Source of the DNA: Hafnia alvei
GTDB taxonomy: Bacteria > Pseudomonadota > Gammaproteobacteria > Enterobacterales > Enterobacteriaceae
Length of the DNA: 64,000 bases
Direction: 5' to 3'
Assembly: GCF_034424155.1 (NCBI RefSeq)
Contig: NZ_CP139992.1
Coordinates: 1,504,012-1,568,011 of the forward strand
The translations under genes were made by a program, and so were the position numbers. Shown piece after piece: positions 53,523 to 59,595 of the stretch. Every line of letters begins with the position of its first letter. Position 1 is the first letter of the stretch. The notes below the pieces were generated by a model that was not told where the DNA came from, did not search any database, and worked only from the letters and a program-made list of their open reading frames with translations.

Positions 53523-53644
53523 ATTGTCAGCTTTAAACCACCTCCTCGGGAGGTGGTGATTGTCCCTGTGAGGCTATAGCCTGAAGGAAGCCCATGCCAG
53601 AAAATTCCAGCTTACTCACCACAAGTAAGAAGGAAATCACTGAC

Positions 53645-54082
53645 ATGAGCAGTTATAGAAGTTCAGCACATGTATTCTGGCGTTGCAAATATCACTTGGT
53701 GTGGACGCCAAAGTATCGCTACAAGGTTTTAGCAGGGGCGGTAGGTAAAGAGCTTTATCGCTCAGTTTATATACTTTGCAATATGAAAGATTGTGAGGTA
53801 CTTGAACTGAATGTTCAGCCAGACCATGTTCATCTTGTCGTGATGATCCCACCGAAACTCTCGATCTCAACGCTGATGGGCGTCCTGAAAGGGCGCACAG
53901 CTATTCGTCTCTACAACAAGTTTCCGCATATACGAAAGAAGCTGTGGGGTAATCATTTTTGGGCGAGGGGATATTTTGCCGACACAGTTGGAGTGAACGA
54001 AGAAATTATCAGGCGCTACGTGAGGCATCAGGATAAGAAAGACCAAGAATACGAACAGCAAATGGCGTTATTACAGGATTAA
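53645..54082 (+). CDS. tnpA: TnpA, IS200/IS605-family Y1 transposase
   Basis: 145-residue HUH single-strand transposase; start at ATG 53645 (MSSYRSSAHVFWRCKYH). The HUH histidines are His61 and His63 (QPDHVHLVVM) and the nucleophilic tyrosine is probably Tyr125 (RRYVRHQ). Full length and apparently active. No accessory tnpB is present, as is usual for IS200. Confidence 0.93.
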   Translation: MSSYRSSAHVFWRCKYHLVWTPKYRYKVLAGAVGKELYRSVYILCNMKDCEVLELNVQPDHVHLVVMIPPKLSISTLMGVLKGRTAIRLYNKFPHIRKKLWGNHFWARGYFADTVGVNEEIIRRYVRHQDKKDQEYEQQMALLQD

Positions 54083-56199: not shown

Positions 56200-57396
56200 T
56201 TATTCAGCTAATTTCCTTTTCACGAAGAGCTGAACACAGAGAAGAAGCACTAATACTCCGGCGATAACCAGCAAATGTTGGATGCGGAAATGATCGGCAA
56301 GCGGGCCGAATAGCACCATACCCAGCGGCAAAGCGCAGCAGTTGGCAACCTGCACCAAGCTGAAAATTCTACCGTGCATTTCGGGTATCACTTTCTCTTG
56401 TAGAAGAGAAGTCACCGGCGCGTTAAAGCACGGCATAGTGATCCCTATCAGGAAATTAAAAACCAGATAAATGCTGAATAGAGGCGCGCAGCCCAGTGCG
56501 ATCATGAAAAAGCCATAGGCGCCGCCAGCGAATAAGGTGGTGCGTAGGCGATTGGTAAATCCTCCCCACATCGCAATCAATATCCCGCCTGCAATAGCGC
56601 CGCTGCTAAACGCCATTTCATTGATAGCTAACCGCCATGCCTCTGGGCCAAACGAACGGCTGACCATCAGGGGCGTCATAAATGCCGCGGGGCTTATCAA
56701 GATCATCATGACAATCAAGAACATAATCAGATAACGGATAAACGGGTTTTGTCGCAGGTAGCGAAAACCTTCACCGATAGCCTTGATTGTCGATTGACCG
56801 TCAAGATTGTCGTTTGTGAGCTTGGTGATCTTTAACATCGACATCAACACTAAGCCAATCGCGGCGGTAATGACGTCGGCGAAGAAGATTTTTTCGATGG
56901 AGAAATAAGCATACAGAACGCCACTGGCCGCCGGTGCAATTAGCATATTCAACGAGCTTAAGGTGCTGTTTATTCCATTTATTTTTATCAAACGGTCTTT
57001 GGGAACTAACTGAGGAATGATCGCATTTACCGTAGGCGTTTGAATTCCCGTACCAAAGGAACGAACGGCCAATACGGCAAAGATCAGCCATAGCGGCTTG
57101 TATCCTAAGATAAATGAAACGGCCAGTAGCAGCGTCACTAGCGTAATAGCCGCGTCTGAAATCATGCTGACATACTTGCGGTTATAGCGGTCTACCCATA
57201 CACCGGCAAACAGCGAAATAATGAGCTGAGGTAAAAAACCGCATAGCGTCGAAATGGTGATCATCAGCCCTGAAGACGTAGTCAGCGTGATGTACCAAAT
57301 AATGGCGTATTGCACGATGGATGAACCAAGCAGAGTCACTGTTTGGGCTGAGAGGAAAAGGGCAATGTCCTTTTTCCAATGAAGTTGTTGCGTCAT
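56200..57396 (-). CDS. Mef-like MFS efflux transporter
   Basis: MFS_3-family exporter. ATG 57396 (MTQQLHWKKDIALF) gives about 398 residues; an in-frame TTG at 57411 is possible. Twelve membrane segments; the first loop GVWVDRYNRKYVSMISDA, the N-terminal FLSAQTVTLLGSSIVQYAIIWYIT and RSFGTGIQTPTVNAIIPQLVP resemble Mef macrolide pumps and EntS. It is preceded by a long leader with small ORFs and a terminator, so expression is probably induced by attenuation. The exported compound is unknown; a ribosome-targeting drug is an attractive guess. Confidence 0.82.
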   Translation of the reverse strand: MTQQLHWKKDIALFLSAQTVTLLGSSIVQYAIIWYITLTTSSGLMITISTLCGFLPQLIISLFAGVWVDRYNRKYVSMISDAAITLVTLLLAVSFILGYKPLWLIFAVLAVRSFGTGIQTPTVNAIIPQLVPKDRLIKINGINSTLSSLNMLIAPAASGVLYAYFSIEKIFFADVITAAIGLVLMSMLKITKLTNDNLDGQSTIKAIGEGFRYLRQNPFIRYLIMFLIVMMILISPAAFMTPLMVSRSFGPEAWRLAINEMAFSSGAIAGGILIAMWGGFTNRLRTTLFAGGAYGFFMIALGCAPLFSIYLVFNFLIGITMPCFNAPVTSLLQEKVIPEMHGRIFSLVQVANCCALPLGMVLFGPLADHFRIQHLLVIAGVLVLLLCVQLFVKRKLAE

Positions 57397-57421
57397 GGTA
57401 TTGATACTCAAGTTTTTTCAA

Positions 57422-57457
57422 TAAAAAAGCCGGTTCGCACTGTTGGCGGCCCGGCTT
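57422..57457 (-). terminator. attenuator-type terminator just before the MFS gene
   Basis: On the minus strand, stem AAGCCGG / CCGGCTT (57451-57457 / 57427-57433), 17-nt loop, then TTTTTTAT. It ends only about 26-45 nt upstream of the possible MFS start codons and 10 nt after the stop of a small ORF, so it must be bypassed for the pump to be made. Confidence 0.85.
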
Positions 57458-57466
57458 AAAGATTGT

Positions 57467-57502
57467 CTATTTCAACAATCCGTCACGGATGTTTTGCAAC
57501 AT
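57467..57502 (-). CDS. putative leader peptide 3 of the MFS gene
   Basis: Eleven-residue ORF MLQNIRDGLLK. Its ATG overlaps the stop of the preceding small ORF (TGATG), so it may be translated by coupling. Its last codons and stop lie in a GATTGT / ACAATC hairpin (57461-57480) immediately before the terminator stem, so a ribosome here would change RNA folding. Confidence 0.4.
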   Translation of the reverse strand: MLQNIRDGLLK

Positions 57503-57534
57503 CAAGGCCACAGATAAAGCGTGGCGAGAGACAT
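57502..57534 (-). CDS. putative leader peptide 2 of the MFS gene
   Basis: Ten-residue ORF MSLATLYLWP, preceded by AAGGG at short distance and ending in a stop that overlaps the next ATG. Small, unproven, but well placed for stalling control. Confidence 0.4.
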   Translation of the reverse strand: MSLATLYLWP

Positions 57535-57626
57535 AAACCCTTAGTTTCAGCTAGCAAAAAGCGACGTAACTAAACGACCGATAACGAGCTAGCTGATGAA
57601 GAGTTTAAGCAGCGGATGGCTGCTGA

Positions 57627-57707
57627 TTAGGCTCCGAACAACGCTTCATCTTTCGATTGCGCGGAGCTGCGTCTGGTGACGGATTTTTTGAAGTAGGTAC
57701 AAACCAT
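57627..57707 (-). CDS. putative leader peptide 1 of the MFS gene
   Basis: 26-residue ORF beginning MVCTYFKKSVTRRSS, basic in the middle, starting about 42 nt after the predicted transcription start. It has only a weak GAG ribosome site. The RNA after it contains a GCTGC hairpin and a 9-bp TCAGCTAGC / GCTAGCTGA stem (57547-57555 / 57588-57596). Confidence 0.4.
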   Translation of the reverse strand: MVCTYFKKSVTRRSSAQSKDEALFGA

Positions 57708-57755
57708 GAAATTCACTCGATACCAAGAGACAAATTCTCTTTAGATTAGGTGCGA

Positions 57756-57784
57756 ATTATATCTGTGTAATATAGATAGGGCAA
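57756..57784 (-). promoter_or_regulatory. sigma-70 promoter of the MFS leader
   Basis: On the minus strand TTGCCC (57779-57784), 17-bp spacer, TATAAT (57756-57761, perfect -10). The predicted start near 57749 yields a leader of about 350 nt before the MFS gene. Confidence 0.7.
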
Positions 57785-57802
57785 ATCGAGGTCTTTTGAT
57801 GG

Positions 57803-58621
57803 CTACTCTAGGCTAAGGATATCGCCGGTATTAAACGGCTGAGCATTTAACCATAAGCGACCCCAACCACCGGTACAGTGGCAGCCATAAATGAGGTTGA
57901 TTTTTTGCTATTGGAAATAGCGTCGGGTGCGGAGCATTTCAGGCAAACCTGCGCTGCGTAAATGTAGACCGCCGATAACGGCGCTAACTTTTTCTACTCC
58001 GGCGATCTGCTTGGCATAGTCAATGATATCGCAGATGCCTGAATGTGAGCAGCCAACAATAATCACTAAACCTTGGCTTCCACGCCAGATTAAACAGCTA
58101 TCATCTCTGACATAGTCAGTTTCATAACCGGTATCATTTTCAATTAAGCCGAAGCGTTTATCGGGATTGCTGCGGGGGATTTCTCCGGCAAAAATAAAGC
58201 GCGTACCAATGTTTACCGGTTGGCGTGAAAGCTGAAAGGGGAAATGGGTTTGTAATTGCGTTTTGTTATTTTCAGGGGATATTTTTTTAATTTTGATGGC
58301 ACGAGAACCGATAAAGCCCCCCGCATAGCGCGTGAGGAATACATCGGGGTGACATATGACCTTAGGCTTGTGTGGAGTGTAGGGAATCAGATAAGGAAGC
58401 CCACCAAAGTGATCGTAATGCCCGTGTGAAAGCACCACGGAAGAAACAGTGCTTAAATCTATTCCTAAACGTTGCGCGTTATGACAAAAACGCCGATCTT
58501 GCCCCGTATCAAATAGGACCCGCTGTTCGCCATCATCCAGCCATAAACTTAATCCTACGCCGCTGTTTAAATCCGCGTGACGGGTGTGATTTTCTAGCAA
58601 AACCGTAATCTTAAGCGACAT
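57803..58621 (-). pseudogene. MBL-fold hydrolase gene interrupted by an in-frame amber codon
   Basis: COG1237-type metallo-beta-lactamase-fold protein (dihydropterin-phosphate synthase-like). The open frame (57908-58621, 237 residues) has the metal motif SHGHYDH (His66, His68, Asp70, His71) and VGCSHSGICDI, but stops at TAG 57908-57910 after RTRRYFQ. The same frame continues for 34 codons to 57803 and encodes QKINLIYGCHCTGGWG, the conserved C-terminal HCTG region, giving the normal family length of about 272. A CAG-to-TAG change explains it. Either a recent pseudogene, or the protein is made truncated or by suppression. Confidence 0.8.
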
Positions 58622-58659: not shown

Positions 58660-59595
58660 CTAGATATGAATCAGACAGCCGTTTTCTTCGAGCTGAGCCA
58701 GCTGTGCCGGATAGTGGCCAAATGAATTCCAACGCAGATCGAGTCGTTTAAGATTCTTGAGCGTGTAGATACTGTCTGGCAATGAGGTGAGATTATTTGC
58801 TCGCAGATCCAGCGTTTGTAGCTGGGTAAGAGCGGCAATACTTTCTGGTAATTCAGACAGATTATTGAATCTGAAATTAAGATCTTGTAAACGGCTTAAT
58901 TGCGTTAAGGCATCCGGAATCGATTTAATGCGGTTACCCGATATATCTAGCACGCGTAGCTGGGTGAGCTGATTGATTTGGTCTGGGAACTGGCTGAGAT
59001 GATTGTTCATTAAATGCAGTTCTTTGAGATTTGTCAGCTCCCCTATCTTTTCAGCAAACAACGATATTTTATTATTGTATAAGCGCAGCTCTTCCAAGGC
59101 GTACATGGAAAAAACGGTTTCTGGAATGGTGGTGAGGTGGTTATCAGTGATATTCAGGTAACGCAGGTTATGTAGTGCTGACAACGTTGCTGGAATATCG
59201 TTGAGTTGGTTATTGCTCAAATAGAGATAGACCAATTCAGTTAGCTGTCCAAGCGTGCTGGGCAATTCAGATAATTTATTATGCCCGAGATCGAGCATTT
59301 CCAGCGCGCGAAGCTGCCCAATAGAGTCAGGAATATGTGGGATCTGATTACAGGATATATTGAGCACCTGTAGCTTAGTTAAGCTGTCAATTTGCTCGGG
59401 ATAGTCGCGTAGCTGGTTGTTATAGACGCTAAGACCTGTCAGCCCTTCATTCAATTTAATGTTATCAAGCTGCTCAAGTTGTTGATTATCAAGATTGAGA
59501 AACGGCGCGTTAGCCTGTTCTGTCGATGTTATTGAGCGTTGGTGTAATAGCATAGGGATGAATCCAATGAGTGAGGCTGGCAGTGAGGAGATCAC
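58660..59595 (-). CDS. leucine-rich repeat protein
   Basis: 311 residues (an ATG at codon 15 is an alternative start). After a short N-terminus it consists of about eleven 23-residue leucine-rich repeats of the LxxLxLxxNxLxxLPxxIxx type, e.g. LEMLDLGHNKLSELPSTLGQ, and ends soon after the last one. No NEL ubiquitin-ligase domain, no signal peptide with a clear cleavage site, no membrane anchor. Such repeats are protein-interaction scaffolds. The first residues are hydrophobic (LPASLIGFIPMLLHQ). Function unknown; AT-rich composition and an LRR architecture uncommon in enterobacterial core genomes hint at acquisition. Confidence 0.85.
   Translation of the reverse strand: MISSLPASLIGFIPMLLHQRSITSTEQANAPFLNLDNQQLEQLDNIKLNEGLTGLSVYNNQLRDYPEQIDSLTKLQVLNISCNQIPHIPDSIGQLRALEMLDLGHNKLSELPSTLGQLTELVYLYLSNNQLNDIPATLSALHNLRYLNITDNHLTTIPETVFSMYALEELRLYNNKISLFAEKIGELTNLKELHLMNNHLSQFPDQINQLTQLRVLDISGNRIKSIPDALTQLSRLQDLNFRFNNLSELPESIAALTQLQTLDLRANNLTSLPDSIYTLKNLKRLDLRWNSFGHYPAQLAQLEENGCLIHI

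Follow-up and report, generated by a model that had tools for sequence, protein, structure and literature searches.

A 64,000-nucleotide stretch of Hafnia alvei DNA (contig NZ_CP139992.1, positions 1,504,012 to 1,568,011, hereafter 'the window') was analyzed around a gene for a Mef-like efflux pump of the major facilitator superfamily (MFS). Ahead of the pump gene on the minus strand lies a leader of ~ 350 nucleotides (nt), flanked by an upstream gene and the MFS gene and containing a promoter, three small open reading frames (ORFs) and a terminator. The leader contains a uup RNA (Rfam RF03060) at 57631–57676, which had been overlooked in a preliminary description of this DNA. It is also crossed by a leader ORF, ORF1, that is under coding selection as judged from its substitution pattern. 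The leader is probably a uup-type, ribosome-operated transcription attenuator for the pump, working through one peptide and not through the three proposed in the preliminary description. Hafnia comparisons were made with four genomes, the window's own and three others (G001–G003), and the promoter hexamers, ORF1 and the terminator are conserved in all four. The features concerned are as follows.

57756..57784, minus strand: sigma-70-type promoter TTGCCC-N17-TATAAT (10/12 match; hexamers invariant in 4/4 Hafnia)
57627..57707, minus strand: leader ORF (ORF1 of the preliminary description), encoding MVCTYFKKSVTRRSSAQSKDEALFGA followed by a stop (pN/pS, the ratio of nonsynonymous to synonymous differences per site, 0.06; V-T-R-x-x-S in 17/17 gammaproteobacterial leaders counted)
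57631..57676, minus strand: uup RNA, Rfam RF03060 (40.0 bits against a gathering cut-off of 36.8, E 2.2e-06)
57657..57667, minus strand: arm 1 of the uup hairpin, GCTCCGCGCAA, carrying the S-A-Q codons (helix 94.9% paired)
57631..57650, minus strand: arm 2 with loop segment A, GATGAAGCGTTGTTCGGAGC, able to pair with arm 1, with segment B or with T1
57507..57525, minus strand: T1 hairpin, GCCACGCTTTATCTGTGGC, lacking a good T-run in the window (arm 2 × T1 duplex −20.1 kcal/mol)
57423..57457, minus strand: intrinsic terminator T2 (−16.9 kcal/mol; stem and T-run invariant in 4/4 Hafnia)
56200..57396, minus strand: gene for the Mef-like MFS transporter, 398 amino acids (Pfam MFS_1; TIGR00900 253.2 bits, under the cut-off of 319.6)

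The proposed mechanism is that ORF1 would be translated while RNA polymerase makes the leader. By default, the ribosome would run on, the arm 1:arm 2 hairpin would form, T1 and T2 would both fold and transcription would end ahead of the pump gene. A ribosome-blocking compound would instead stall the ribosome on the conserved V-T-R-R-S-S codons, so that arm 1 was covered. With arm 1 masked, arm 2 (GATGAAGCGT...) would pair with T1 (ACGCTTTATC), and the released 3′ arm of T1 would compete for the 5′ arm of T2, leading to read-through; in Bacillota, likewise, the freed T1 3′ arm may be able to engage the second terminator T2. The elements of this scheme that sequence comparison supports are the coding conservation of ORF1, the compensated uup helix, the complementarity of arm 2 and T1 in Hafnia and many Bacillota, and the conserved T2.

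Leader ORF and uup RNA

Relatives of the leader were collected by a pattern scan for the motif core in one genome per species (84,980 species), which returned at least 80 loci. Fifty-eight of these passed a stem filter, with L056 dropped as a copy of L002. The 72 members analyzed are the 58 filtered loci, L001–L004, L033 and nine hits from Rfam family searches (L124–L132), among which L125 and L126 are second copies from the L063 and L107 genomes. Alignment A3 holds 52 of the 72; not taken into it were 15 leaders with unusual loop or spacing (some of them MATE leaders), L003, identical rows and truncated rows. The residue count took in 67 of the 72 leaders and the pN/pS test 49, in four groups chosen by the analyst and without MATE leaders of the L043/L046 type. 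The tests of segment pairing described below covered 71 loci (A:B and B:C), 67 (arm 2:T1) and 57 (T1:T2).

In the four Hafnia sequences and one from Klebsiella, differences summed over all pairs across 17 codons of ORF1 fell 28 times on the third position, six times on the second and never on the first. The window and this Klebsiella sp. BIGb0407 (L049) have the same leader peptide. In the right frame pN/pS was 0.06 for Hafnia with Klebsiella, 0.41 for Bacilli, 0.41 for gammaproteobacteria and 0.61 for Clostridia, against 0.91–1.98 in the wrong frames where it was defined (pS was 0 there for Hafnia with Klebsiella, leaving the ratio undefined). By these measures ORF1 is under coding (purifying) selection.

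In Bacillota and gammaproteobacteria alike the uup RNA makes up the 3′ half of a leader ORF, whose reading frame extends into the uup helix or right through it. The ORF is mostly 21–48 codons long and, in Bacillota, frequently has a strong ribosome-binding site. The best start picked by script lies 54–66 nt before arm 2 in 65 of the 72 loci. The exceptions are L054, L100 and L127, where no start was found (L100 stands at the end of its locus), L055, where the frame is probably wrong, L052 and L059, where an internal start was picked, and L077, with a TTG at −36. Examples of the peptides are MLYIKFVKLIRKLCSAQMYTMKRCTELNQEA in Cytobacillus (L061), MKNRIVIDELKRRISSVQMYPMKHCTELKLKA in Pseudoflavonifractor (L099) and MTLYASDQRVTRVNSVQMRTMKRCPEPVEA in Aeromonas (L038). 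Around the Ser codon, Arg or Lys stands at −3 in 56 of the 67 leaders counted, Val or Ala at +1 in 56 and Gln at +2 in 57, and the core reads V-T-R-x-x-S in all 17 gammaproteobacterial leaders and mostly R-[KR]-x-x-S-[VA]-Q in Bacillota. The invariance of the Ser is itself built in, because the stem filter demands a Ser codon within arm 1.

Past the S-x-Q codons the reading frame is shifted in Hafnia, Klebsiella, L110, L128 and L129, which read ...DE[AT]L.GA followed by a stop, and in L033, L034 and L060 it stops at once after the core while most of the arm 2 RNA letters stay. Since the frame is lost there and the arm 2 letters persist, it seems to be the peptide that counts as far as the core, and the RNA from there on. 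The C-terminal peptide MK[RH]C[STAP]E was rejected as the stalling peptide because these same leaders shift its frame or end before it.

The RNA itself was also recognized by an extended model built without Hafnia or Klebsiella, which matched 57571–57691 with 60.5 bits (E 7e-16). Across the 52 aligned leaders, uup helix 1 was 94.9% paired and 4 of its 11 pairs were changed on both sides. For the full set of proposed pairs, 86.3% of cells were paired as against 39–43% when the pairs were slid, and 75 cells were doubly changed as against 37 in shuffles (0/500 as high). The leader as a whole folded to −120 kcal/mol compared with −86 kcal/mol for shuffles (z −6.7; 0/100 as good).

Pairing of arm 2 with T1 and alternative explanations

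Arm 2 (GATGAAGCATTGT) is complementary to the first terminator, T1 (ACAATGCTTTGTC), over its loop and the upper part of its stem. Only 2 of 500 shuffles gave a duplex as good as that of the window, and the 10-bp match (GATGAAGCGT/ACGCTTTATC) is found in 4/4 Hafnia, at ≤ 1/200 shuffles. Complementarity at ≤ 10/200 shuffles was seen in 40 of 67 loci; the match is 13–14 bp long in 27 of the 67, all Bacillota. T1 was chosen by hairpin strength in these comparisons, and in some loci (L049, L074, L095 and L099) the hairpin so chosen is probably a wrong one. Candidates for both T1 and T2 were present in 57 of 70 loci, the 13 others lacking one or the other, and the T1 3′ arm with its tail complemented the T2 5′ arm at ≤ 10/200 shuffles in 32 of the 57. 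The terminator AAGCCGG...CCGGCTTTTTT of the preliminary description is T2; it is present at 57423–57457 and ends 26 nt upstream of the MFS ATG at 57396. A first terminator scan had omitted it because its loop is 17 nt long.

To model the effect of a ribosome on the leader, an assumed footprint that began 14 nt ahead of the first P-site base and extended 15 nt past it was masked at every ORF1 codon in turn. With the masked ribosome at codons V10–S15 (VTRRSS), the modeled probability of T1 was 0.00–0.03 and arm 2 was predicted to pair with T1, whereas the other codons gave 0.87–1.00. Under the same masking L004 gave 0.00–0.02, and 0.84–1.00 elsewhere; in L050 the T1 read-out was out of register and was not used. 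Stalling, a drug that causes it, an effect on T2 and inducibility of the pump are inferred.

A number of results weigh against the proposed attenuator. T2 was folded in every modeled state (probability 0.90–0.94 in the window and 0.78–0.94 in L004), and the T1–T2 relay of the window is 7 bp long and at chance level (78/200, 143/300 and 46/200 shuffles as good). The Bacillota leaders L061 and L090 showed no T1 switch in equilibrium folding, so any switch in them must be kinetic. None of the 13 gammaproteobacterial loci outside Hafnia (Aeromonas, Klebsiella and others) passed the arm 2/T1 test, and the partner of arm 2's variable purine in T1 followed it as a trend that is not significant (p 0.086). 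In Klebsiella L049 the leader ORF is present and no terminator was recognized by a crude scan, one that misses some terminators found by other tests, such as T2 of L061 and T1 of L083. The ribosome-binding site of ORF1 is weak in Hafnia (GAGT). Two covariation measures were weak, namely the number of pairs changed on both sides (13; 23/500 shuffles as high) and that of further pair types (35; 58/500 as high). Lastly, the A:B and B:C pairings have no clear place in the proposed switch. The functional reading of the uup RNA is the strongest new point of the proposal, and the overcoming of T2 in Hafnia the weakest.

The remaining leader features, including those that form A:B and B:C, are listed here.

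57608..57624, minus strand: second small hairpin, AGCAGC-CATCC-GCTGCT (7/7 pairs with both-side changes in alignment A3; 77.7% of cells paired)
57595..57601, minus strand: segment B (CTTCATC), the complement of A (six core A:B pairs standard in 52/52 leaders)
57534..57607, minus strand: B:C hairpin with the 9-bp repeat, C being 57547–57555 (−25.6 kcal/mol)
57467..57502, minus strand: ORF3 of the preliminary description, containing 57471–57486, the 3′ partner of the ORF1-start pairing (no matching Klebsiella peptide)

The A:B core pairs GATGAA with TTCATC. Its outermost positions are mostly unpaired (31/52 and 39/52), and one of them shows C-G, A-U, G-C and U-G pairs. Compared with shuffles of the downstream stretch, A:B ranked at ≤ 5/100 in 41 of 71 loci (window 11/100); B:C reached that rank in 28 of 71 leaders (window 0/100). 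The 9-bp inverted repeat TCAGCTAGC/GCTAGCTGA and the GATTGT/ACAATC stem described earlier are both present.

It could be that the leader peptide switches translation or mRNA stability, or acts via Rho, and not through intrinsic termination. The lack of a recognized terminator in Klebsiella and the unswitched T2 of the fold model would fit such a switch, while the invariance of T2 in 4/4 Hafnia, the T1 and T2 candidates at 57/70 loci and their complementary arms at 32/57 argue against it, and we consider it unlikely, though far from negligible. A second alternative is that the leader has decayed, leaving the pump constitutively low or off and the switch defunct in Hafnia. T1 has no T-run, the T1–T2 relay is weak and a 124-nt dispersed repeat is inserted between C and T1 in two of the four Hafnia genomes (L002 and L003). 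Matches to this repeat, some of which are short, lie at 29 other sites in the genome of the window. The insertion spares ORF1, the uup helix, B, C, T1 and T2, in keeping with a modular switch. The purifying selection on ORF1 and the retention of T2 and of arm 2/T1 complementarity in 4/4 Hafnia make decay a rather improbable account.

The uup RNA might also be a riboswitch or a protein-binding site, with the leader ORF incidental. It is a curated, structured cis-regulatory family, and the passages of a 2024 review on riboswitch-like motifs include it, as a simple structure for which they give no further riboswitch evidence (PMC11477304). The same account places uup RNAs in Bacillota and Gammaproteobacteria, often beside ATPases of unknown biochemical function. 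The coding selection on an ORF that runs through the motif, the simplicity of the helix and the unrelated chemistry of the downstream genes all speak against this explanation, to which little credence can be given.

The preliminary description had all three small ORFs translated and sensing a drug in turn. ORF1, ORF2 (MSLATLYLWP), ORF3 (MLQNIRDGLLK) and the TGATG overlap of ORF2 with ORF3 are indeed present in the sequence, a TGATG occurs in Klebsiella too, and there is a multi-peptide precedent in the ermB attenuator with its two leader peptides (PMC8274638, as far as that account goes). An antibiotic-sensing upstream ORF (uORF), toiL, has also been described in E. coli (PMC12121999, in the part concerned). 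Conservation of all three peptides was not borne out, coding selection being seen only on ORF1. The ATG of ORF2 reads GAG in two of the four Hafnia genomes, beside the repeat insertion, and ORF2 (57502–57534) lies over the T1 hairpin, to which arm 2 is complementary, so that a role as RNA is likelier. ORF3 is invariant across the four Hafnia genomes and hence uninformative on coding within them, and the counterpart region in Klebsiella reads MGYPQRFIHHY and MF, each followed by a stop. In the modeled free leader, 57676–57692 at the start of ORF1 pairs with 57471–57486 in ORF3 (probability 1.00). Conservation is lacking for ORF2 within Hafnia and for ORF3 outside it, and present for ORF1 and, within Hafnia, for the terminator. 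A three-peptide attenuator is highly improbable on this evidence; what finds support in the earlier proposal is a leader-peptide attenuator that precedes a Mef-like pump gene and can fold in alternative ways, with the signal residing in one conserved leader ORF.

Genes behind uup leaders and origin of the pump

The first gene from any of four families within 900 nt of the leader was an ABC-F gene at 39 of the 72 loci, a class I methyltransferase gene at 11, an MFS gene at 10 (four of them Hafnia) and a MATE gene at 8; the remaining four loci have ≤ 635 nt of DNA behind the leader. In the window the uup RNA thus precedes an MFS gene and not the usual Uup/ABC-F-type ATPase. Because the motif also stands before MFS, MATE and methyltransferase genes, the Uup/ABC-F neighborhood is a habit and not a defining trait. 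Against the NCBIfam model for ribosomal-protection-like ABC-F proteins (380 bits), L065 (390) and L068 (380.2) pass and L076 (360.7) fails. In L063, L071 and L088 an MFS gene lies 1.4–1.9 kb past the leader, behind an ABC-F gene, an order that recalls the mef/msr operons. An apparent ABC-F start was noted between the uup leader and the MFS gene in L045 (by tblastn) and L093 (by eye). It looks as if the pump had replaced an ABC-F gene behind the same switch. The methyltransferase genes are all in gammaproteobacterial loci (L033, L034, L038, L047, L052, L059, L060, L062, L070, L083 and L094), L083 having been checked against families and the ten others called by their similarity to it. This uncharacterized class I methyltransferase is a candidate drug-response gene.

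One interpretation of these data is that a portable attenuator for sensing antibiotics has the uup RNA as its working part, a proposition that we regard as close to evenly balanced. Such an attenuator would consist of a basic-x-x-S peptide core and a two-terminator relay (arm 1:arm 2, then arm 2:T1, then T1 3′ arm:T2 5′ arm), would stand ahead of resistance-type genes that are unrelated to one another (ABC-F ribosome protectors, Mef-like pumps, MATE pumps and the methyltransferase) and would have moved with the pump from Bacillota to Hafnia. If so, it would give a function to an RNA family listed without one in the 2024 review (PMC11477304, passages on such motifs). It would also predict that genes of four unrelated families share one inducing signal, and would mark the uncharacterized genes of the ABC-F, MATE and methyltransferase kinds as probable drug-response genes. 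For an attenuator, such a relay would be an uncommon design; none like it was recognized in a literature search that covered mainly openly available papers, few of them in depth. No link between a uup RNA and a leader peptide was found in the literature searched on uup, ABC-F and attenuation. As to the signal, it may be conjectured by analogy that a Mef-like pump favors macrolides, and, going by the ABC-F relatives, lincosamides, pleuromutilins, phenicols or oxazolidinones would be possible as well.

The pump is only Mef-like. Its best NCBIfam models are TIGR00900, Mef(B) and Mef(A), all below their cut-offs; bit scores against the cut-offs were 198/675 for Mef(A), 208.5/800 for Mef(B) and 180.7/870 for Mef(C), and identity to Mef(A) and Mef(B) is ~ 31%. 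No PDB sequence matched it at E 0.001, and E. coli held no DNA match to the leader and pump. Plasmids gave 116 records, all below 60% identity to the pump; among the best 20 of these the top match was 48% and 12 were mef(B) near 31.5%.

A quick tree of 75 MFS rows, with support from the Shimodaira–Hasegawa-like approximate likelihood ratio test (SH-aLRT) only, placed the 15 rows that have an upstream uup leader (two of them identical) on one branch with support of 100. The Hafnia and Klebsiella sp. BIGb0407 pumps, 79% identical, are nested in the Bacillota part of that branch and joined to Clostridia rows (support 91). In 58 of the 60 other rows, which are ≤ 49% identical, a strict pattern found no uup core within ~ 1.5 kb (a leader farther off would escape it), and in the other two, L081 and L105, the uup leader lies only downstream of the MFS gene. 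In a motif-independent search of 590 Bacillota genomes with the pump, the two best full-length matches (60 and 57%) sit behind a uup leader, and one partial match of 52% was also found (G519). The extended RNA model matched 4/4 Hafnia and 0/95 other relatives, the filters applied being such that weak matches are lost. Transfer of pump and leader from Bacillota is the simplest reading of these relationships and probably took place.

The window shares with the uup motif (RF03060; Weinberg et al. 2017, via PMC11477304) both sequence and helix, above the gathering score. It differs in standing before an MFS pump, the motif being described there before ATPases of the Uup kind. The 48-position Rfam model is also without the leader ORF, segment B, the arm 2:T1 pairing and the tandem terminators proposed here. 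The Streptococcus pneumoniae mef(E)/mel attenuator likewise combines a leader peptide, a 327-nt leader, alternative stems and a terminator with a Mef pump; its peptide, MTASMRLR, is unrelated to MVCTYFKKSVTRRSSAQSKDEALFGA of ORF1, and no mention of a uup element was found in the part of that account dealing with the attenuator (PMC4335068). The attenuators of the antibiotic resistance (ARE) ABC-F genes vmlR, msrD and cplR, as far as described, similarly couple stalling on a uORF to a resistance gene, via transcription and/or translation attenuation. The uORF consensuses given for this group, MIN (vmlR), MR[I/M] (cplR), MK[L/Q] (vmlR2) and MAGN (lsaA), differ from the core of the uup leader ORF with its mostly 21–48 codons (PMC10201436, sections on uORFs). 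In Bacillus subtilis, bmrB-bmrCD is outlined as a ribosome-mediated transcription attenuator of a drug transporter too, one of another transporter class (PMC4191407).

Distribution of the motif and surroundings of the leader

Family searches with the Rfam model found the RNA in 7 of 250 genomes from the class of a Paenibacillus (one carrier already known), 7 of 245 from the class of a Tissierella (two known), 2 of 274 from the window's class (one known) and 3 of 149 from its family (one known). As these low counts even include known carriers, the uup RNA is uncommon and patchy. The core pattern fixes the 20 letters of arm 2, so the conservation of arm 2 cannot be judged from the pattern scan; arm 2 does vary in the family hits L124 and L127–L134. 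Among the pattern loci that fail the stem filter, L042, L066, L068 and L075 look genuine by eye and the remaining 17 have the look of chance or coding matches. L133 (an SVQ leader) and L134 (an SAQ leader), both recognized by eye, and the weak L135 stand outside the 72. In L040, L041, L102, L108 and L111 the core pattern also matches, by eye, within a gene reading about GNIYVDEALFRA, which is a source of false matches and which we take to be mutM. A mobile-element reading of the long self-complementary leader was rejected, the uup search having found a single copy in the window's own genome, as in each of 10 member genomes.

The promoter TTGCCC-N17-TATAAT of the preliminary description is present with its 10/12 match and would place the transcription start site near 57749. 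By itself the match carries little weight, because a scan of the region gave one promoter-like site where shuffles gave 2.8. The gene upstream of the leader (57908–58621, minus strand) presumably encodes a metallo-beta-lactamase-fold protein, judging from its sequence. This ORF stops at a TAG at 57908 that is CAG in the three other Hafnia genomes, and the final stretch of the gene is lost in the window's genome. Adjoining the locus, 58660–59595 (minus strand) encodes a 311-amino-acid protein judged by eye from its translation to be of the leucine-rich-repeat kind. The translated ORF at 53594–54082 (plus strand) looks like an IS200/IS605-type transposase.

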